A stretch of 64,000 nt of DNA from Ensifer adhaerens (GTDB lineage: Bacteria > Pseudomonadota > Alphaproteobacteria > Rhizobiales > Rhizobiaceae). The stretch lies in the NCBI RefSeq assembly GCF_002007205.1, contig NZ_LAZS01000005.1:124001-188000 (forward strand), given 5' to 3'. Positions 2,354 to 11,865 of the stretch are shown here, in pieces. Each line of letters starts with the position of its first letter. The stretch's first letter is position 1. A program made the translations under genes and the position numbers. The notes under the pieces were generated by a model. That model was not told where the DNA came from. It worked only from the letters and a program-made list of their open reading frames with translations, and searched no databases.

Positions 2354-3232
2354 CTAGACCGGTTTGCGAAAGATGCGAGTGGAATCGAAAAGGCCTTCGA
2401 GCGTCTTCATCCGATCCCGGGTTTCGTCCCAGTTCGAACTCTGCACAGCCTCGATCAGCGCCTCGACCAGGAACAGGATCACCACCGAACTGTCCCAGGC
2501 CGACGGCACCTCGATCTGCGAACGGAACACGCGTGAGGCGGACTTGGCGACCGGCGAGGTCCAGCGGTCGGTAAACAGCACGATCTCGACGCCGCGCTCG
2601 CGGGCGGATTTGGCAAGCGTCACCATCTCCTGCTCGTAGCGGCGAATGTCGAAGAGAATCAGCACGTCGCCCTGGCGCATGTCGAGCACGTAGTGCGGCC
2701 ACGCGCTGGCATTGGTGGCGATTTCGGTAACGCCTGGCCGAATGACCTGGAGGTGGGTGAAGAGATAGTCGGCGAGCGAGCGGGTAATGCGGCCGCCAAG
2801 CAGATAGACGCTGCGCTTGCGGTCGGCGATGAGGGCGGCCGCCTCGTCGAAGTCCTGCGGCTCGATCTGGGTCAGCGTCTCGCGCAGGTTGCTGGTGATC
2901 GCATCGGCAAAACGGTTGAGCGTATGGGTGCCCGGCGCGTTGGCGGCCCAGCGGTCGTGCTTGGTGATCGGGTTGGAGATCGTCGCTTCCAGCTCTTGGT
3001 GCAGGCGCGCCTGGAAATCCGGGAAACCGCGGAAACCGAGTTTCTGCACCATGCGGGCGACGGTCGGGGTCGAAACGCCGGCGTTCTCGGCGACCGTGGT
3101 GATCGAGCCGAGTCCCGAAACGGGATAATTGTCGAGAAGTGTCTCCGCCAGTTGCTTCTCTGCGCGGGTCAGCGCGGTGAAGTGGGCAGTGATCACGTCC
3201 GACACCGTGGTGGATGTCGCCTTGCTGCTCAA
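2354..3232 (-). CDS. RpiR-family transcriptional regulator (HTH + SIS domains)
   Basis: This 292-residue protein has the RpiR layout. An N-terminal winged helix-turn-helix (about residues 5-80) contains the recognition stretch AGVSTPTVARMVQKLGFRGF. A sugar-isomerase (SIS) domain (about 120-270) follows, with the phosphosugar-type loop SVYLLGGRITRS. RpiR proteins usually sense a phosphorylated or small metabolite and regulate the adjacent catabolic genes. It lies between the importer, on the same strand, and the divergent plus-strand catabolic operon, so it is the likely local regulator of one or both. A perfect inverted repeat directly upstream may be its operator. Confidence 0.92.
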   Translation of the reverse strand: MSSKATSTTVSDVITAHFTALTRAEKQLAETLLDNYPVSGLGSITTVAENAGVSTPTVARMVQKLGFRGFPDFQARLHQELEATISNPITKHDRWAANAPGTHTLNRFADAITSNLRETLTQIEPQDFDEAAALIADRKRSVYLLGGRITRSLADYLFTHLQVIRPGVTEIATNASAWPHYVLDMRQGDVLILFDIRRYEQEMVTLAKSARERGVEIVLFTDRWTSPVAKSASRVFRSQIEVPSAWDSSVVILFLVEALIEAVQSSNWDETRDRMKTLEGLFDSTRIFRKPV

Positions 3233-3263
3233 ATTGTCTCCCCTGAACCGATCTAGAGCCGGT

Positions 3264-3292
3264 TTGTGACAGATTAAACATCGCTGTCACAA
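3264..3292. promoter_or_regulatory. Perfect 9-bp inverted repeat, candidate RpiR operator
   Basis: TTGTGACAG at 3264-3272 and its exact complement CTGTCACAA at 3284-3292 are separated by 11 bases, giving a 20-bp centre-to-centre layout that suits a dimeric helix-turn-helix protein. It sits in the divergent intergenic region between the rpiR-like gene (start 3232) and the amidohydrolase gene (start 3399). Control of both promoters by the RpiR protein is inferred. Confidence 0.6.
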
Positions 3293-3398
3293 TTGGAGTC
3301 AATCGCAATTTTGAAGAGATCGTTTCAGATTTTGATTGACACTCATCATTCTCTGAAGAATTCTTTTCATTAACGAACGTCTAACGGGGCAAGAGGGG

Positions 3399-4181
3399 AT
3401 GCCGGTGTTGACGCGACTTTTGACCGAAGCAGATGGCGATCCCGTTGCGATCGAGAACGCCGTAGGGAAGGGCGATATCGTGCTCGTCTGCGAGCATGCC
3501 TCACGCCGGGTACCGGAACGACTGGGTACGCTCGGCCTTACCGAACAGGCGCTTGAGAGCCATATCGCCTGGGATCCGGGCGCGCTTGCCGTTGCCAGGC
3601 TCCTTGCCGCCAAGCTCGATGGCACACTGATCTACCAGCGCTTCTCCCGCCTTGCCTACGACTGCAACCGTCCGCCGGAAGCGGATGCGGCAATGCCCGC
3701 CGTCAGCGAGGTCTATGAGATCCCGGGAAACCGGACGATGTCGTCCGACGAGCGCCAGGCGCGGGTCGACGAGATCTACCGGCCGTTCCATGATGCGGTC
3801 GCCCGCTTCGTTTCCGAGCGCAAGGCCGCAGGCCGCCCGCCGGTTCTGGTGACGATGCACAGTTTCACGCCCGTCTATTTCGGCAAGCCGCGCGCCGTCG
3901 AAGTCGGCGTGCTGCACGATGCGGACAGCCGGCTTGCCGACCATATGCTCGCGACCGCCACCAAGGGACAGGTTGCCTACGATATCCGTCGCAACGAGCC
4001 CTATGGGCCGGCCGACGGCGTTACTCATAGCCTGATCGAATATGGCGTCCACAACGGACTGCCGAATGTGATGATCGAGATCCGCAACGATCTCATTCGC
4101 AATGACATCGGCCAAAGGGTCATGGCCGATTACCTGGAAGGGCTGCTGCGCAAAGGCGCTGCGGCTGTTTCAGCACAATAA
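3399..4181 (+). CDS. N-formylglutamate amidohydrolase family protein
   Basis: This 260-residue protein belongs to the FGase (HutG-type) family of metal-dependent hydrolases that release glutamate from N-acylated glutamate. The early VCEHASRRVP and the central VTMHSFTP segments are the conserved metal-site regions. The C-terminal SLIEYGVHNGLPNVMIEIRN is typical of the family. A purine-rich AAGAGGGG precedes the ATG. No other histidine-utilisation gene is nearby; the following genes are an amine/amino-acid permease, a GS-like ligase and two dehydrogenases. Its substrate may therefore be a gamma-glutamyl amide made by the ligase and not N-formylglutamate; that is inference. Confidence 0.85.
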   Translation: MPVLTRLLTEADGDPVAIENAVGKGDIVLVCEHASRRVPERLGTLGLTEQALESHIAWDPGALAVARLLAAKLDGTLIYQRFSRLAYDCNRPPEADAAMPAVSEVYEIPGNRTMSSDERQARVDEIYRPFHDAVARFVSERKAAGRPPVLVTMHSFTPVYFGKPRAVEVGVLHDADSRLADHMLATATKGQVAYDIRRNEPYGPADGVTHSLIEYGVHNGLPNVMIEIRNDLIRNDIGQRVMADYLEGLLRKGAAAVSAQ

Positions 4182-4294
4182 AAGACCCTGGGGAGCGGCG
4201 TTGCCGCGGTCCTGTTCCGGCCAGCCGGGGCAGGTGGTTGATGGGACCCTGCCGCAATGGGGCGGTGTGGTCTGAAGAAATCAGGGGAAGAAAA

Positions 4295-5842
4295 ATGTCG
4301 GACTACAGTGATTCAGACAAAAAGCAGGACATGAGCGTCCTGCACTCGATGGGCTATGCCCAGGAGCTCGAGCGGCGCATGAGCCAGTTCTCGAACTTCG
4401 CGGTGTCGTTCTCGATCATCTGCATTCTTTCGGGCGGCATCAACTCGCTCGCCCAGGCCACTGCCGGCGCAGGGGGCGCCGCGATCGGCATCGGTTGGCC
4501 GCTTGGCTGCTTCATCTCCCTGGTTTTCGCCGTCGCCATGGCACAGATCAGCTCGGCCTATCCGACGGCGGGTGGCCTCTATCACTGGGGTTCGATCCTC
4601 GGCAACCGCTTCACCGGCTGGCTGACAGCCTGGTTCAACCTGCTCGGTCTCGTCACCGTTCTCGGCGCGATCAACGTCGGCACCTACTACTTCTTCATGG
4701 GCTCGTTCGGCACGCCGTATTTCGGCCTTGCGGATACGACGCTGACGCGGATCATCTTCCTCGCGATCATCACCGGCGGCCAGGCGCTCGTGAACCATAT
4801 GGGCATCGGGCTGACCGCCAGGCTCACGGACTTTTCCGGTTACCTGATCTTCGCGACGTCGATCCTGCTCGCACTCGTCTGCCTGGTCGCAGCCGACAGC
4901 TACGACTTTGCGCGGCTCTTCACCTTCTCCAACTATTCCGGTGAAGCCGGCGGCAATGTGTGGCCGCAGACCTCGGGCACCTGGGTCTTCCTGCTCGGCC
5001 TGCTCCTGCCGATCTACACCATCACCGGCTACGACGCCTCGGCGCATACCTCGGAAGAAACGGTGAAAGCCGCCCATTCCGTGCCGCGCGGCATGGTTTC
5101 GTCGGTGCTCTGGTCGGCTCTCTTCGGCTACATCATGCTGTGCTCGTTCGTGCTGATGATCCCGAACATGGACGAAGCCGCCAAGCAGGGCTGGAACGTG
5201 TTCTTCTGGTCGATGGATGCGCAGGTGCACCCCATCATCAAGGACATTCTCTATCTCGCTATCCTCGTCAGCCAGTGGCTGTGCGGCCTGGCGACGGTGA
5301 CCTCGGTGTCGCGCATGATCTTCGCGTTTTCGCGTGACGGCGGCCTGCCGGCCTCCAAGGCGCTCGCCAAGGTCAGCCCGACCTACCGCACGCCGGTTGC
5401 CGCGATCTGGGTGGGCTCGATCCTCTCGGTGCTGTTCGTCTGGGGCTCGTCGCTGGTTTCGATCGGCGAGACGCCGGTCTACACCATCGTCGTGTCGTGC
5501 ACCGTCATCTTCCTGTTCTTCTCCTTCGCGATCCCGATCACGCTCGGCCTCTTCGCCTGGGGAACCTCGAAGTGGGACAAGATGGGTCCGTGGAACCTCG
5601 GCGAGAGCATGTTCAAGCTCTTCGCCGTGCTCTCGATCGTCGCCATGGTGCTGATCTTCATCCTCGGCGTGCAGCCGCCGAACGACTGGGCGCTCTACAT
5701 CACCGTGGGCTTCCTGGTGCTGACCGGCGCTGTCTGGTTCGGCTTCGAGAGCCGCCGCTTCCGCGGCCCGCCGATCGGTGACGAAGTGGCACGCCGCCAG
5801 GCAGAAATCGCCGCTGCAGAAAAGGCCGTCGGCCAGATCTGA
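4295..5842 (+). CDS. APC-family amino acid/amine permease
   Basis: This 515-residue integral membrane protein has about 12 hydrophobic segments and the APC-family opening FAVSFSIICILSGGINSLA. The next region (AYPTAGGLYHWGSILG) resembles the amino acid/choline/GABA transporter branch. I chose the ATG at 4295 because GGGGAAG lies just upstream; an upstream in-frame ATG at 4238 would add 19 residues without a good ribosome site. It probably brings the amine or amino acid into the cytoplasm for the downstream ligase. A strong terminator directly follows it. Confidence 0.9.
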   Translation: MSDYSDSDKKQDMSVLHSMGYAQELERRMSQFSNFAVSFSIICILSGGINSLAQATAGAGGAAIGIGWPLGCFISLVFAVAMAQISSAYPTAGGLYHWGSILGNRFTGWLTAWFNLLGLVTVLGAINVGTYYFFMGSFGTPYFGLADTTLTRIIFLAIITGGQALVNHMGIGLTARLTDFSGYLIFATSILLALVCLVAADSYDFARLFTFSNYSGEAGGNVWPQTSGTWVFLLGLLLPIYTITGYDASAHTSEETVKAAHSVPRGMVSSVLWSALFGYIMLCSFVLMIPNMDEAAKQGWNVFFWSMDAQVHPIIKDILYLAILVSQWLCGLATVTSVSRMIFAFSRDGGLPASKALAKVSPTYRTPVAAIWVGSILSVLFVWGSSLVSIGETPVYTIVVSCTVIFLFFSFAIPITLGLFAWGTSKWDKMGPWNLGESMFKLFAVLSIVAMVLIFILGVQPPNDWALYITVGFLVLTGAVWFGFESRRFRGPPIGDEVARRQAEIAAAEKAVGQI

Positions 5843-5850
5843 TCAACGAC

Positions 5851-5890
5851 AAAAAGGCGGGAGCGCGACCGCGACTTCCGCCTTTTCTTT
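5851..5890 (+). terminator. Rho-independent terminator after the permease gene
   Basis: AAAAGGCGGGAG pairs with CTTCCGCCTTTT (12 bp with one G-T pair) across an 11-base loop, and the sequence continues CTTTT. It begins 9 bases after the permease stop, so the GS-like gene further on probably needs its own promoter. Confidence 0.85.
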
Positions 5891-5912
5891 TGCCGGAGCT
5901 TTACCGGTTACC

Positions 5913-5929
5913 TGAACGGATCACGTTCA
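5913..5929. promoter_or_regulatory. Short inverted repeat upstream of the GS-like gene
   Basis: TGAACG and its exact complement CGTTCA flank five bases, about 50 bases upstream of the ligase start. Position and symmetry suit a repressor operator for the second transcription unit. The binding protein is unknown and the site is short, so chance occurrence is possible. Confidence 0.35.
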
Positions 5930-5977
5930 CGCGGCCCAGAAAAATCGTGACCCAAGGGAACGGCCGCGTGACCAAAC

Positions 5978-7357
5978 ATGGGATGGATGTTGATGAGCTA
6001 TACGTTTGATGAGTTGAAGGAAGACGTCGCCGCCGGTCGCATCGACACGGTTCTCGCCTGCCAGGTGGACATGCAGGGCCGGCTGATGGGCAAGCGCTTC
6101 CATGCGCAGTTCTTCGTCGATGGTGCCTGGAAGGAAACGCATAGCTGCAATTACCTGCTTGCGACCGACATGGAGATGGAGACCGTGCCCGGCTACAAGG
6201 CGACGAGCTGGGAGAAGGGCTACGGCGACTATACGATGAAGCCCGACCTTTCGACGCTTCGTCGCATTCCCTGGCTGGAAGGCACCGCACTCGTGCTCTG
6301 CGACATGCTCGACCACCACACCCATGAAGAAGTGCCGCATTCGCCGCGCGCGATCCTGAAGAAGCAGGTGGCGCGGCTCGAGAAGATGGGCCTGAAGGCC
6401 TACATGGCGAGCGAGCTCGAATTCTTCCTGTTCGACCAGTCCTATGACGATGCCCGCCAGTCCGGCTATCGCGACCTGCAACTCGTCAGCGGCTACAACG
6501 AGGACTACCACATCTTCCAGACCACCAAGGAAGAGGATGTGATGCGGGCGATCCGCAACGGCCTGCAGGGCGCCGACATTCCGGTCGAGAATTCGAAGGG
6601 CGAGGCGTCGGCCGGCCAGGAAGAGATCAACGTGCGTTATGCTGACGCGCTGACGATGGCCGACCGGCATGCGATCATCAAGAACGGCTGCAAGGAAATC
6701 GCCTGGTCGCGCGGCAAGGCCATCACCTTCCTCGCCAAGTGGAACTATGCGGCCGCCGGTTCGTCGTCCCATATCCACCAGTCGCTCTGGAGCGCCGACG
6801 GCAAGTCGTCGAAGTTCTACGACGAGAGCGGCAAATACGGCATGTCCGAGATGATGCGCCACTATGTGGCCGGGCTGCTCAACCACGCGAGCGAGATCAC
6901 CTATTTCCTGGCGCCCTACATCAACTCCTACAAGCGTTTCATGGCCGGAACCTTCGCACCGACCAAGGCTGTCTGGAGCAAGGACAACCGAACCGCCGGC
7001 TATCGTCTTTGTGGCGAAGACACCAAGGCGATCCGCATCGAGTGCCGCGTCGGCGGCTCCGATCTCAATCCCTATCTCGCTTTCGCCGCTTTGATCGCCG
7101 CCGGCATTTCCGGTATCGAGAACAAGATGGAGCTGGAAGCGCCTTTTGTCGGCGACGCCTATGGCGGCAAGGATGTGCGCGAGATCCCGCGCACGCTGCG
7201 CGATGCCACGGCGGCGCTCAGCGAATCGAAGATGCTGCGCGAAGCGTTTGGCGACGAGGTCATCGAGCACTATGCACGGGCCGGGCGCTGGGAGCAGGAA
7301 GAATACGACCGCCGCGTCACCGACTGGGAGGTCGCGCGCGGCTTCGAACGGGCCTGA
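5978..7357 (+). CDS. Glutamine-synthetase-family ligase (gamma-glutamylamine synthetase-like)
   Basis: At about 459 residues it is a GS-fold protein of the size of PuuA and GMAS, not a full GlnA. Family landmarks are in order: ASELEFFLF (metal-binding glutamates), GQEEINVRYADALTMADRH, SSHIHQSLW, NSYKRF and ECRVGGSDLNPYLAFAAL. The C-terminal adenylylation-site region of housekeeping GlnA is not recognisable. Such enzymes use ATP to join glutamate to an amine. The start is uncertain: in-frame ATGs lie at 5978, 5987 and 5993. Aldehyde and alcohol dehydrogenase genes follow, which suggests that the glutamylated product is then oxidised. The amine is unknown. Confidence 0.88.
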   Translation: MGWMLMSYTFDELKEDVAAGRIDTVLACQVDMQGRLMGKRFHAQFFVDGAWKETHSCNYLLATDMEMETVPGYKATSWEKGYGDYTMKPDLSTLRRIPWLEGTALVLCDMLDHHTHEEVPHSPRAILKKQVARLEKMGLKAYMASELEFFLFDQSYDDARQSGYRDLQLVSGYNEDYHIFQTTKEEDVMRAIRNGLQGADIPVENSKGEASAGQEEINVRYADALTMADRHAIIKNGCKEIAWSRGKAITFLAKWNYAAAGSSSHIHQSLWSADGKSSKFYDESGKYGMSEMMRHYVAGLLNHASEITYFLAPYINSYKRFMAGTFAPTKAVWSKDNRTAGYRLCGEDTKAIRIECRVGGSDLNPYLAFAALIAAGISGIENKMELEAPFVGDAYGGKDVREIPRTLRDATAALSESKMLREAFGDEVIEHYARAGRWEQEEYDRRVTDWEVARGFERA

Positions 7358-7440
7358 CCGGCACATATTCACTCACAAAGGTGGCCGTTCCTGACCGGAG
7401 CGGCCATCGCATCATTCGCAATGAAAGCAGGAAGACGATC

Positions 7441-8826
7441 ATGAGCATGATCAAGTGCATTTCGCCCGTGAACGGCGAGGTCTATGCAGAACGCCCGGCG
7501 ATGCCGCTGGACATGGCAAAGCAGGTGGTTTCCCGCGCCCGCCAGGCACAGAAGGCCTGGGCGCGTCGTCCGCTCGACGAGCGCGTCAATCTGGTTCTGG
7601 CCGGTGTCGCCCGTCTCAACGAGATGGTCGACGAAGTGGTGCCGGAGCTTGCCTGGCAGATGGGCCGGCCGGTGCGCTACGGCGGCGAGTTCAAGGGCTT
7701 CAACGAGCGCTCGAACTATGTCGCGACGATCGCTGCCGATGCGCTGAAACCGCTGGTGATCGAGGAAAGCGACCGCTTCGAACGCCGCATCGCGCGCGAG
7801 CCGCATGGCGTCGTCTTCGTCGTGGCGCCGTGGAACTATCCCTATATGACCGCGATCAACACGGTCGCACCGGCGCTGATGGCCGGCAACACGGTGATCA
7901 TCAAGCATGCGAGCCAGACGATCCTCGTCGGCGAGCGCATGGTGCGCGCCTTCGTCGAGGCCGGCGTTCCCGCCGACGTCTTCCAGAACATCTTCCTCGA
8001 CCACGAAACGACGGCCGCGCTGATTGCGGCCAAGAGCTTCGACTTCGTCAACTTCACCGGTTCGGTCGAAGGCGGGCGCTCCATCGAGCGGGCTGCCGCC
8101 GGCACCTTCACCGGGCTTGGCCTCGAACTCGGCGGCAAGGATCCGGGCTACGTCATGGAAGACGCGGACCTCGATGCAGCCGTCGATACGCTGATGGATG
8201 GCGCCACCTACAATTCCGGTCAGTGCTGCTGCGGCATCGAGCGCATCTACGTGCATGAAAAGCTCTATGACGCCTTCGTCGAAAAATCGGTCGCCTGGGT
8301 CTCCAACTACAAGCTCGGCAACCCGCTCGATCCGGAAACGACGCTCGGCCCGATGGCCAACAAGCGCTTTGCCGCGACCGTGCGCGAGCAGATCGCCGAT
8401 GCCGTTTCCAAGGGCGCCAAGGCGCTGGTCGATCCGAAGCTGTTCCCTGCCGACGACAGCGGCGCCTATCTCGCGCCGCAGATCCTTACCAATGTCGACC
8501 ACTCCATGGCCTTCATGCGGGAAGAAACCTTTGGTCCTGCCGTCGGCATCATGAAGGTGAAGAGCGACAGCCAGGCGATCGAGCTGATGAACGACAGCCA
8601 GTATGGCCTGACAGCGTCGCTGTGGACCAAGGATGCCGAACGCGCCGCGCGCATCGGCGCCGACATCGAGACAGGCACCGTGTTCATGAACCGCGCCGAC
8701 TATCTCGATCCGGCGCTTTGCTGGACCGGCGTCAAGGAAACCGGCCGTGGCGGCTCGCTCTCGGTCATCGGCTTCCAGAACCTTACCCGTCCGAAATCCT
8801 ACCATCTGAAGAAAGTCACCGCATGA
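7441..8826 (+). CDS. NAD(P)-dependent aldehyde dehydrogenase
   Basis: This 461-residue member of the aldehyde dehydrogenase superfamily oxidises an aldehyde to an acid. Key residues are visible: the general base E229 in LGLELGGKDPG, the catalytic cysteine about residue 263 in YNSGQCCCG, and the NAD-loop FTGSVEGG near 206. The ATG at 7441 follows GCAGGAAG. Its stop overlaps the start of the alcohol dehydrogenase gene by four bases (ATGA), so the two are translationally coupled. In context it may oxidise a gamma-glutamyl aldehyde, as PuuC does in putrescine use, but the substrate is not proven. Confidence 0.92.
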   Translation: MSMIKCISPVNGEVYAERPAMPLDMAKQVVSRARQAQKAWARRPLDERVNLVLAGVARLNEMVDEVVPELAWQMGRPVRYGGEFKGFNERSNYVATIAADALKPLVIEESDRFERRIAREPHGVVFVVAPWNYPYMTAINTVAPALMAGNTVIIKHASQTILVGERMVRAFVEAGVPADVFQNIFLDHETTAALIAAKSFDFVNFTGSVEGGRSIERAAAGTFTGLGLELGGKDPGYVMEDADLDAAVDTLMDGATYNSGQCCCGIERIYVHEKLYDAFVEKSVAWVSNYKLGNPLDPETTLGPMANKRFAATVREQIADAVSKGAKALVDPKLFPADDSGAYLAPQILTNVDHSMAFMREETFGPAVGIMKVKSDSQAIELMNDSQYGLTASLWTKDAERAARIGADIETGTVFMNRADYLDPALCWTGVKETGRGGSLSVIGFQNLTRPKSYHLKKVTA

Positions 8827-9968
8827 CCATCACCGCCAACTGGAGCTATCCGACGTCCATCAAGTTCGGTGCCGGCCGGATCAAGGAGCTTGCCGACCAT
8901 TGCAAGGCGGTCGGCATGAAGAAGCCGCTGCTGATTACCGATCGGGGCCTCGCGCCGATGGCGATTACGCAAAATGCGCTCGATATCCTCGAGGTCGCCG
9001 GCCTCGGCCGCGCGATCTTTGCCGACGTCGATCCGAACCCGAACGACATCAATCTCGCCGCCGGCGTGAAGGCGTTCAAGGATGGAGGCCATGACGGCGT
9101 CGTCGCCTTCGGCGGCGGCTCTGGCCTCGACCTCGGCAAGTGCGTGGCCTTCATGGCCGGGCAGACGCGGCCTGTCTGGGACTTCGAGGACATCGGCGAC
9201 TGGTGGACCCGCGCGAGCGTCGAGGGCATTGCCCCGATCGTCGCCGTGCCAACGACTGCCGGCACCGGCTCGGAAGTCGGCCGCGCCAGCGTCATCACCA
9301 ATTCGGCCAGCCACGTGAAGAAGGTGATCTTCCACCCGAAGTTCCTGCCGGCAGTCACGATCTGCGACCCGGAACTGACGGTCGGCATGCCGAAGGTAAT
9401 CACCGCAGGCACCGGCATGGACGCCTTTGCGCATTGCCTGGAAGCCTATTCCTCGCCCTTCTACCACCCGATGTCTGCCGGTATCGCGCTCGAAGGCATG
9501 CGTCTGGTGAAGGAATACCTGCCGCGCGCCTACAAGGACGGCACCGATATCGAGGCCCGGGCCAACATGATGAGTGCTGCCGCCATGGGCGCCGTCGCCT
9601 TCCAGAAGGGCCTTGGCGCAATCCACTCGCTGTCGCATCCTGTTGGAGCGATCTACAACACCCACCACGGCATGACCAATGCCGTGGTGATGCCGCCGGT
9701 GCTGCGCTTCAACCGCCCGGCGATCGAGGAGAAGATCGTGCGCGCGGCCGCCTATCTCGGCATACCAGGCGGCTTCGACGGCTTCTACGACTACGTGCTG
9801 AAGCTGCGCGAGGAACTGGGCGTGCCGGACAAGCTGTCGGCGCTCGGCGTTGGCACGGACCGGATCGATGAAATGTCGGAAATGGCGATCGTCGACCCGA
9901 CCGCCGGCGGCAACCCGGTCGAGCTGACGCTCGACGCGGCCAGGAAGCTCTTCCGCGAGTGCATCTGA
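8823..9968 (+). CDS. Iron-containing (group III) alcohol dehydrogenase
   Basis: This 381-residue protein belongs to the FucO/AdhB family. The nucleotide loop GGGSGLDLGK is at about 97-106. The metal ligands D200, H204, H268 and H282 fall in GTGMDAFAH and IHSLSHPVGAIYNTHHG, with the same spacing as in FucO. The ATG overlaps the stop of the aldehyde dehydrogenase gene. An alcohol-to-aldehyde step feeding the coupled aldehyde dehydrogenase implies that the starting compound carries a hydroxyl group, for example an amino alcohol. That points away from the classical putrescine route, which uses a flavin oxidase for this step. Confidence 0.93.
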   Translation: MTITANWSYPTSIKFGAGRIKELADHCKAVGMKKPLLITDRGLAPMAITQNALDILEVAGLGRAIFADVDPNPNDINLAAGVKAFKDGGHDGVVAFGGGSGLDLGKCVAFMAGQTRPVWDFEDIGDWWTRASVEGIAPIVAVPTTAGTGSEVGRASVITNSASHVKKVIFHPKFLPAVTICDPELTVGMPKVITAGTGMDAFAHCLEAYSSPFYHPMSAGIALEGMRLVKEYLPRAYKDGTDIEARANMMSAAAMGAVAFQKGLGAIHSLSHPVGAIYNTHHGMTNAVVMPPVLRFNRPAIEEKIVRAAAYLGIPGGFDGFYDYVLKLREELGVPDKLSALGVGTDRIDEMSEMAIVDPTAGGNPVELTLDAARKLFRECI

Positions 9969-10207: not shown

Positions 10208-10954
10208 ATGGCGATTGTTTCCCTCGCGAATGCGAAGGGGGGAGCCGGCAAGACAACGGCAGCCTTGCTGCTTGCCTGCGAATTCGCACGGCGCGGTGAC
10301 CGCGTTGCGGTGCTTGATTGCGATCCTCTCGCCTGCATGACCGACTGGTTTCGCCACGGCCGCCATGACGGCAATCTTTTCGTGTTCTCGGGCATAACGA
10401 CCACCACGCTGAGTGATCATCTGAGAAGGCTGCGCGGCCAGGTCGAGCATGTGGTCATCGACCTGTCCGGGGCTGCCGATGTGCTCGTGGCGCTGGCGAT
10501 CGGTCTTTCCGACCTGACGCTGATCCCGGTGCAGGGCTGCGCCATGGATGCGCGTGGCGCCATCCAGGTTCTGGACCTGATCCGCCATATCGAGAACAAT
10601 GCGCGCGCCGACATCAATCACGCGGTGCTGCTGACCCGCGTCAACCCGATCGTAACGACGCGCGCCATGCGCAGCGTCAAGCTGTCGCTCGCAGAGAGCC
10701 GGATCCGGCTCGTCGAGACCCCGCTCGTGGAGCGCACCGCGTTTCGTGAACTATTCGAACAGGGCGACACGCTTTATTCGCTCGATGCTGCGCGTGTCAG
10801 CAACCTGGCGAGGGCGCAGGCCAATGCCCGCGCATTGGCAGACGATGTGCTTCGATTGCTCAATCCGCCGGGCGAGGCGGCGCGACACGGGCCGTTTTCG
10901 TCCATGTGCTACCGCACGCGGCGGACAGCGGACCCGGCTGTCGTGCGCGCCTGA
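10208..10954 (+). CDS. ParA/VirC1-like P-loop ATPase, copy 1
   Basis: This 248-residue protein has the deviant Walker A motif of the ParA/MinD group at residues 10-17 (KGGAGKTT, signature lysine K10). Walker A' aspartates are in VAVLDCDP, and Walker B is in HVVIDLSG. It lacks the N-terminal DNA-binding domain of large plasmid ParA proteins and no parB follows, which is the pattern of orphan ParA proteins that position cellular cargo. It is a clear paralogue of the next gene over nearly the whole length. The tail after about residue 220 is divergent. A triple Pho-like repeat lies upstream. Confidence 0.85.
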   Translation: MAIVSLANAKGGAGKTTAALLLACEFARRGDRVAVLDCDPLACMTDWFRHGRHDGNLFVFSGITTTTLSDHLRRLRGQVEHVVIDLSGAADVLVALAIGLSDLTLIPVQGCAMDARGAIQVLDLIRHIENNARADINHAVLLTRVNPIVTTRAMRSVKLSLAESRIRLVETPLVERTAFRELFEQGDTLYSLDAARVSNLARAQANARALADDVLRLLNPPGEAARHGPFSSMCYRTRRTADPAVVRA

Positions 10955-11083: not shown

Positions 11084-11145
11084 GAAGCGAACCACCGGCT
11101 GCGGCCGTCCGGTTCGCGCCGAACATGCAGAGAATGGGGAATATC

Positions 11146-11865
11146 ATGGCGGTCATCACTTTCGCCAATGCAAAGGGTGGCGCGGGCAAGACGACCGCGG
11201 CGCTGATCCTGTCGACGGAGCTGGCGAGGCAGGGGCACCGGGTGGTCGTCCTCGATGCCGATCCGCAGCGCTGGATCACCAGCTGGGCCGAAGCGTCCGG
11301 CCACATCGCCAATCTCACCGTCATTTCGCACATCACGCCCGGCTCGCTCGAATGTCATATCCGCGAGGCGAAGGACGAGGCGGATTACATCGTCATCGAT
11401 CTCGCGGGTGCCAAGGACCAGATCGTAGCACTTGCGCTTGCCATCTCCGACCACGTGCTTATCCCGGTCCAGGGCTGTGCCATGGATGCGAAGGGTGCCG
11501 CGCAGATTCTTGAACTGATCCGGCATATCCAGGATCGTTCGGGCCACCGCATCAACCATTCGGTCGTGCTCACCCGCGTCAATTCGCTCGTCACCACGCG
11601 CGCGCTGCAGACGATCAAGGCGATGCTCGCCGAGCGTGGCGTCTCGGTGCTCGACACGCCGATCGTCGAGCGTGCGGCCTATCGCGAGATCTTCGATCTT
11701 GGCGGCACGCTGCAGACGATGGATCCGAACCGCGTCAGCAACCTCGACAAGGCGCGCGAGAACGCAAACGCCCTCGCCAACGAAGTGCTGGCGCTGATGC
11801 CGGTCAAGACGCGCCGCTCCTGGGCTGCGCGCATGCCGTCCTGGGCCTCGCGCAACGCCGCCTGA
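11146..11865 (+). CDS. ParA/VirC1-like P-loop ATPase, copy 2
   Basis: This 239-residue paralogue of the preceding protein shares the opening ANAKGGAGKTTAAL (deviant Walker A, residues 7-20), the VLDADPQRW Walker A' region and VIDLAGAKDQ. The block LIPVQGCAMDAKGAAQ is almost the same in both. I chose the ATG at 11146 because GGGGAA precedes it and its N-terminus then lines up exactly with copy 1; an upstream ATG at 11125 would add seven residues. No ParB gene accompanies it. The next gene is a soluble chemoreceptor on the same strand, which raises the possibility of a role in placing receptor clusters. Confidence 0.88.
   Translation: MAVITFANAKGGAGKTTAALILSTELARQGHRVVVLDADPQRWITSWAEASGHIANLTVISHITPGSLECHIREAKDEADYIVIDLAGAKDQIVALALAISDHVLIPVQGCAMDAKGAAQILELIRHIQDRSGHRINHSVVLTRVNSLVTTRALQTIKAMLAERGVSVLDTPIVERAAYREIFDLGGTLQTMDPNRVSNLDKARENANALANEVLALMPVKTRRSWAARMPSWASRNAA

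Follow-up and report, generated by a model that had tools for sequence, protein, structure and literature searches.

The window analysed here spans 64 kb of contig C18 (NZ_LAZS01000005.1) from the 6.87-Mb genome of Ensifer adhaerens. It contains five plus-strand genes that are present as open reading frames and belong to the families named in a preliminary description of this DNA. The first gene (3399-4181) encodes an amidohydrolase of the N-formylglutamate amidohydrolase (FGase) family (PF05013, 155 bits) and is followed by the genes for a permease of the amino acid-polyamine-organocation (APC) superfamily that belongs to a TIGR00907-like clade (4295-5842; PF13520, 175 bits), a glutamine synthetase (GS)-like ligase (5993-7357; PF00120, 343 bits), an aldehyde dehydrogenase (7441-8826; PF00171, 403 bits) and an iron-type alcohol dehydrogenase (8823-9968; PF00465, 158 bits; PF25137, 138 bits). 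The start of the ligase was taken to be MSYTF at position 5993, with a further ATG located upstream at position 5978. The two dehydrogenase genes are coupled by the ATGA overlap that had already been described, which is visible at positions 8823-8826. Additionally, a divergent gene on the minus strand (2354-3232; PF01418 and PF01380) encodes an RpiR/SIS-type protein, the predicted regulator of the cluster, and is accompanied by an ATP-binding cassette (ABC) transporter operon on the same strand; both were absent from the preliminary description. With respect to the protein families and their closest relatives, this gene cluster very probably specifies an RpiR-linked catabolism of ethanolamine by gamma-glutamylation.

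In the proposed pathway, ethanolamine would be imported by the APC permease and joined to glutamate, with consumption of ATP, by the GS-like ligase, the predicted gamma-glutamylethanolamide synthetase of the first step. The iron-type alcohol dehydrogenase, a predicted gamma-glutamylethanolamide dehydrogenase, would oxidize the resulting gamma-glutamylethanolamide to gamma-glutamylacetaldehyde, which the coupled aldehyde dehydrogenase would convert to gamma-glutamylglycine. In the last step, the FGase-family protein, a predicted gamma-glutamylglycine amidohydrolase, would release glycine along with glutamate that is recycled. The divergent RpiR protein would control the promoter of the cluster via paired palindromes located in the gap between positions 3233 and 3398. 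The general scheme of import, glutamylation, oxidation from alcohol to aldehyde to acid and final hydrolysis, which had been put forward previously, fits these data, as the enzyme set is that of the known ethanolamine route.

Conservation of the gene set

The genetic composition of the cluster was compared in two sets of loci. The Rhizobiaceae set was derived from the best 80 of 594 confirmed ligase matches and hence consists of near relatives; two loci at contig ends were dropped, and 78 were scored. The wider-order set drew on further genomes within the order and comprised 83 loci, 17 of which were dropped due to a short flank, resulting in 66 scored loci. It leaves out the genome under study, genome G135 and the genomes G023 and G187, which are counterparts of the named loci L104 and L090. 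The search for partner genes used individual window proteins as queries at an E-value of 1e-20, a procedure that may miss distant versions. Among the matches listed, the closest named relatives of the ligase belong to Ensifer adhaerens ST2 and Ensifer sp. Root278 (99% identity).

All 78 Rhizobiaceae loci contain the ligase gene with the FGase gene upstream and the genes for the aldehyde and alcohol dehydrogenases downstream on the same strand, as well as an RpiR gene beside it. In the wider order, the three enzyme partners accompany the ligase in 48 of the 66 loci, while two partners are present in 6 loci, one in 4 and none in 8. Counted separately, the FGase gene is located upstream of the ligase gene in 52 of these loci, and the genes for the aldehyde dehydrogenase, the alcohol dehydrogenase and the RpiR protein lie beside it in 52, 56 and 48 loci, respectively. 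Seven neighbourhoods of other GS paralogs were taken as a control, and none of the three partners was detected in the six that were scored (0/6); the seventh (L204) remained unscored, as its ligase lies outside the search, and holds an FGase gene along with an RpiR gene. The ligase is encoded in 87 of 199 genomes of the order, and a phylum-wide search at an E-value of 1e-120 detected the ligase family in 43 of 398 genomes, 38 of which belong to the class of the window.

Since complete loci were found in 78 of 78 and 48 of 66 cases versus none of the six controls, the association of these genes is far beyond chance. The eight wider-order loci in which the ligase has none of the three partners nearby might be taken as a sign that unrelated genes came together fortuitously, but the co-conservation counts refute this explanation, to which we assign practically no probability. 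The conservation of all five genes, which had been suggested as a check of the pathway, thus holds for the four enzymes, whereas the type of permease varies.

Identity of the ligase and the other pathway enzymes

The two closest solved relatives of the ligase are, according to the titles of the entries, Csal_0679 of Chromohalobacter salexigens (5dm3) and a glutamine synthetase of Brucella melitensis (11zs). Over 447 aligned positions, the ligase shares 65% identity with Csal_0679, and 5dm3 is also its top structural match, with a Z-score of 48.1 and a root-mean-square deviation of 3.0 over 380 aligned residues. Moreover, Csal_0679 agrees with the ligase family at 135 of 137 near-invariant columns, defined as those with at least 98% invariance among 139 relatives.

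A cluster for the utilization of putrescine (Puu-type) or methylamine (GmaS-type), or one built around a plain ammonia-dependent glutamine synthetase, would be consistent with a weak similarity of the ligase to the models of type I glutamine synthetase (TIGR00653, 262.8 bits), type III glutamate-ammonia ligase (TIGR03105, 245.2 bits), which we take to be a GmaS-like model, and gamma-glutamylputrescine synthetase PuuA (NF045547, 206.9 bits). However, all three scores are far below the respective cut-offs of 429.15, 469.6 and 650, and the ligase was rejected as a candidate PuuA, GmaS or GlnA protein. An alignment with the genome's own GlnA placed the motifs FDGSS and GYEAP opposite VPGYK and GTFAP of the ligase, indicating the replacement of the Asp and Glu residues that presumably constitute the ammonium site of GlnA. 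In addition, it is not apparent what the alcohol dehydrogenase would act on in a pathway for putrescine or methylamine, and this group of assignments is regarded as highly improbable. The Puu pathway of Escherichia coli, with PuuB and PuuD among its members, proceeds by gamma-glutamylation, oxidation and then hydrolysis. The cluster shares this order of reactions but differs in its ligase, which scores 207 bits against the 650-bit cut-off, in the FGase-family hydrolase that replaces PuuD and in the alcohol dehydrogenase that replaces PuuB.

The best solved relative of the FGase-family protein is Atu2144 (PDB 2odf; E-value 5e-95 over residues 1-257), the name of which we take to be an Agrobacterium tumefaciens locus tag. 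The aldehyde dehydrogenase matched 45 NCBIfam models, and for the 25 models shown its score was in every case below the respective cut-off.

Comparison with known ethanolamine pathways

The ethanolamine pathway of C. salexigens is represented in Table 2 of PMC9397018 by the families PF00120, PF00465, PF00171 and PF05013. The cluster contains the identical four enzyme families, namely a Csal_0679-like ligase, a PF00465 alcohol dehydrogenase, a PF00171 aldehyde dehydrogenase and a PF05013 hydrolase. The two systems differ in the importer, as the C. salexigens system uses a tripartite ATP-independent periplasmic (TRAP) transporter with the binding protein Csal_0678, next to Csal_0679 by number, which binds ethanolamine according to PMC10132767, whereas the corresponding slot of the window is occupied by the APC permease. 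PMC10132767 also describes an operon of Phaeobacter sp. MED193 that encodes an RpiR protein, GGAH, the TRAP transporter EtoVWX, ETAGA, GAADDH and GETADH. Five of the operon proteins rise on phosphorylethanolamine (Table 2 therein), and EtoX binds ethanolamine with a Kd of 7.9 uM. The legend of Figure 5 and Table 2 of that source point to a locus-tag order in which the regulator and the amidohydrolase are followed by the importer, the ligase and the two dehydrogenases, the aldehyde dehydrogenase first and the alcohol dehydrogenase last, which is the order seen in the window; the two systems were likened by gene order and description, and the Phaeobacter importer is of the TRAP and not of the APC type. 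The source also considers the Phaeobacter operon a close relative of genes that have been demonstrated in C. salexigens and in A. tumefaciens C58.

In Streptomyces, GlnA4 (SCO1613) is shown in PMC6529630 to be a gamma-glutamylethanolamide synthetase, and an oxidation to gamma-glutamylglycine followed by hydrolysis by an FGase-family protein is proposed. By this description, the first step and the proposed participation of an aldehyde dehydrogenase and an FGase-family hydrolase are shared with the cluster, whereas the Streptomyces orf2 encodes a short-chain dehydrogenase.

The present analysis establishes the gene content, its co-conservation, the close kinship of the ligase with Csal_0679, the exchange of importers and the conserved palindromes; the substrate of the cluster and each of its reactions, along with the direction of transport and the action of the regulator, are inferred. 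Because an iron-type dehydrogenase and an FGase-family protein already form part of the described pathway, the earlier claim that these two components are new here has to be withdrawn: both families are listed for C. salexigens (PF00465 and PF05013; PMC9397018, Table 2), and PMC6529630 and PMC10132767 contain the proposal of an FGase-family hydrolase in Streptomyces and the equivalent RpiR operon of Phaeobacter, respectively. Likewise, the actinobacterial precedent invoked at that time exists in Streptomyces, but it is not the sole one, as Phaeobacter provides another within the Alphaproteobacteria. The pathway itself is ordinary and already described. The literature search found nothing on the exact set of five genes, on amino alcohols in combination with FGase, on ethanolamine together with TRAP transporters in Sinorhizobium, or on Atu2144.

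Exchange of the importer

The importer slot was defined as the region between the FGase gene and the ligase gene. Among the 78 Rhizobiaceae loci, it is occupied by an APC permease of the window type in 67 cases, by a TRAP transporter in 7 and by another type of APC permease in 3, and it is empty in 1. The 48 complete wider-order loci contain a TRAP transporter (32 loci), an APC permease (6), the other APC type (3) or no recognised importer (7). In locus L080, the FGase gene adjoins the ligase gene and no importer was recognised in the slot, as was likewise seen in seven complete wider-order loci.

The permease of the window reached 203 bits with TIGR00907, which is under the cut-off of 598, and scores of 203 to 230 bits were obtained for the seven tested proteins of this APC type, the window's included. 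A second copy of the window APC type was not found in the genome at an E-value of 1e-20, the only match being the protein itself. The genome also lacks an EtoX-type protein at an E-value of 1e-60, with the APC permease located in the slot instead of EtoVWX, and its best score with the ethanolamine permease model TIGR00908 is 78.2 bits. The other APC type yielded 333 to 374 bits with TIGR00908 in all six loci carrying it, under the curated cut-off of 381.75. The binding protein of the TRAP transporter in locus L046 has 4xf5 and 4uab as its best solved relatives, both of which represent Csal_0678 (70% identity; Z-scores of 37.9 and 37.8). EtoX-type proteins are encoded in 59 of the 87 genomes of the order that contain the ligase versus 8 of the 112 genomes without it (Fisher test, p = 3e-20, uncorrected for kinship). 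EtoX-type matches with one internal stop codon (TAG or TGA) were observed in the genomes G058, G077, G078, G100, G159 and G183.

The importer types were mapped on a quick LG+G4 tree of 139 ligases in which 37 of the 135 inner branches are weakly supported; loci had to contain exactly one recognised importer to be admitted, which removed 25 of 163. The loci with APC and TRAP importers interleave on this tree, which requires at least 16 changes of the importer state. The well-supported branches alone force at least eight changes of the APC label, at least six of the TRAP label and at least four of the TIGR00908-like label. No column of the ligase alignment separates the APC loci from the TRAP loci by a fixed difference, when at least 90% conservation is demanded on each side.

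Since three types of importer share one slot, the simplest reading by substitution is that they perform the same job, the uptake of ethanolamine. A differing permease within such a cluster has a precedent in SPRI_5940 of S. pristinaespiralis, known to us by description: according to PMC6529630, S. coelicolor itself is devoid of the cluster permease, and the expression of SPRI_5940 in this species almost doubled the biomass on ethanolamine. It is somewhat probable that the window APC clade represents a further type of ethanolamine importer that was repeatedly swapped with EtoVWX and the TIGR00908-like permeases, that uptake constitutes an interchangeable module and that the adjacent aminoethylphosphonate-like ABC transporter may feed an ethanolamine-containing precursor. 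What remains new is modest, namely a predicted clade of ethanolamine importers and a slot that often changed hands.

Substrate of the pathway

With respect to the substrate, the preliminary description had named ethanolamine or 3-aminopropanol. Ethanolamine is strongly favoured as the best candidate, whereas 3-aminopropanol is retained solely within an alternative that is rated low. In this alternative, the chemistry would be unchanged but would act mainly on a different small amino alcohol, for instance 3-aminopropanol, 1-amino-2-propanol or an N-methylated ethanolamine, while EutBC would degrade ethanolamine itself.

Several observations weigh against a pathway dedicated to ethanolamine. The genome contains elsewhere a reading frame for EutB-EutC, the ethanolamine ammonia-lyase, which could cover ethanolamine; the cluster therefore need not be the sole ethanolamine route or may serve another amino alcohol. 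The permease lies outside the known ethanolamine permease model, as it gave no match to TIGR00908 (cut-off 381.75) at an E-value of 0.001, and no solved relative of the permease was found at the same E-value. Furthermore, eight genomes of the order carry an EtoX-type protein without the ligase, 18 of the 66 wider-order loci lack at least one partner near the ligase, including the eight without all three, and the demonstration in C. salexigens and A. tumefaciens is known second-hand, via PMC10132767. Nevertheless, the substitution of another amino alcohol is considered unlikely, as it is opposed by the absence of differently fixed ligase columns between the interleaved APC and TRAP loci, by the occurrence of EtoX-type and TIGR00908-like importers in the same slot and by the 78 Rhizobiaceae loci, in which the partners of the ligase are unchanged whatever the importer.

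The EutB-EutC frame itself is located on the minus strand of contig C4 (L239:9217-11601) and comprises 794 amino acids with both EutB (PF06751) and EutC (PF05985). Its N-terminus resembles by eye a twin-arginine signal, pointing to a fused, possibly exported ethanolamine ammonia-lyase.

Predicted operator of the RpiR regulator

The gap between the RpiR and FGase genes (3233-3398) contains two 16-bp palindromes of the form TGAA-N8-TTCA, which are located 42 bp apart and represent predicted operator boxes: box 1, TGAAGAGATCGTTTCA, at positions 3312-3327 and box 2, TGAAGAATTCTTTTCA, at positions 3354-3369. Between the boxes, the plus strand carries a candidate -35 element, TTGACA (3336-3341), and a -10 element at a distance of 17 bp downstream from it would fall within box 2. 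Boxes paired at a distance of 42 bp, with at most one mismatch each, were detected in 70 of the 78 Rhizobiaceae gaps between the RpiR and FGase genes, and 68 of these 70 loci have TTGACA at an identical offset. No such pair was found in 1.65 Mb of other sequence from the same loci. The paired palindromes are probably the operator through which the RpiR protein would control the promoter of the cluster, although kinship of the loci may explain part of their conservation. Paired boxes were found in none of the 51 wider-order loci examined; the operator is therefore either lineage-bound or different there. A control of the adjacent ABC transporter operon by the RpiR protein via the same boxes was also considered and rejected, as none of the 78 gaps between the genes for the solute-binding protein and the RpiR protein contained an exact box, with mismatched boxes left uncounted. 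EpuRI, the regulator in Streptomyces, is not known to belong to the RpiR proteins.

Neighbouring genes and a second ligase locus

The ABC transporter operon runs on the minus strand from position 2176 past the left edge of the window. It encodes a solute-binding protein (1043-2176; PF13343, 99 bits) and a permease, with further frames running left past the window edge that resemble by eye a second permease and an ATPase. A gene for the ABC binding protein is located within 8 kb of the ligase gene in all 78 Rhizobiaceae loci and in 3 of the 66 wider-order loci, all three of which belong to the window's own family. The operon accompanies the cluster in the 78 Rhizobiaceae loci regardless of the importer type and is located downstream instead of upstream of the cluster in the loci L137, L139 and L187. 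The binding protein is distantly aminoethylphosphonate-like, and its best solved relative, 5t1p, has a name without a ligand. The operon is a conserved neighbour that may belong to the pathway.

Directly after the cluster, two tandem genes (10208-10954 and 11125-11865) encode ParA/VirC1-like ATPases, whose scores of 132 and 139 bits lie below the ParA_partition cut-off of 180 bits. Homologs of these proteins are encoded near the cluster in 62 of the 80 Rhizobiaceae loci.

The control neighbourhood L204 on contig C4 (L204:7267-12469) comprises genes for a GS-like ligase (PF16952 and PF00120), an FGase, a class III aminotransferase and an RpiR regulator, and it adjoins frames that resemble by eye ABC transporter genes. 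This gene set suggests a second gamma-glutamylation-like route in the same genome, parallel to the first and directed at a different amine.

Biological implications

A major membrane lipid carries ethanolamine as its head group. The gene cluster indicates how soil- and plant-associated members of the Rhizobiaceae could draw nitrogen from ethanolamine without a bacterial microcompartment. The interchangeable slot suggests a function, open to testing, for APC permeases of a clade located outside the ethanolamine permease model, and the paired palindromes offer a candidate RpiR operator that can likewise be tested. If these predictions are true, uptake would be an interchangeable module of an otherwise steady pathway.

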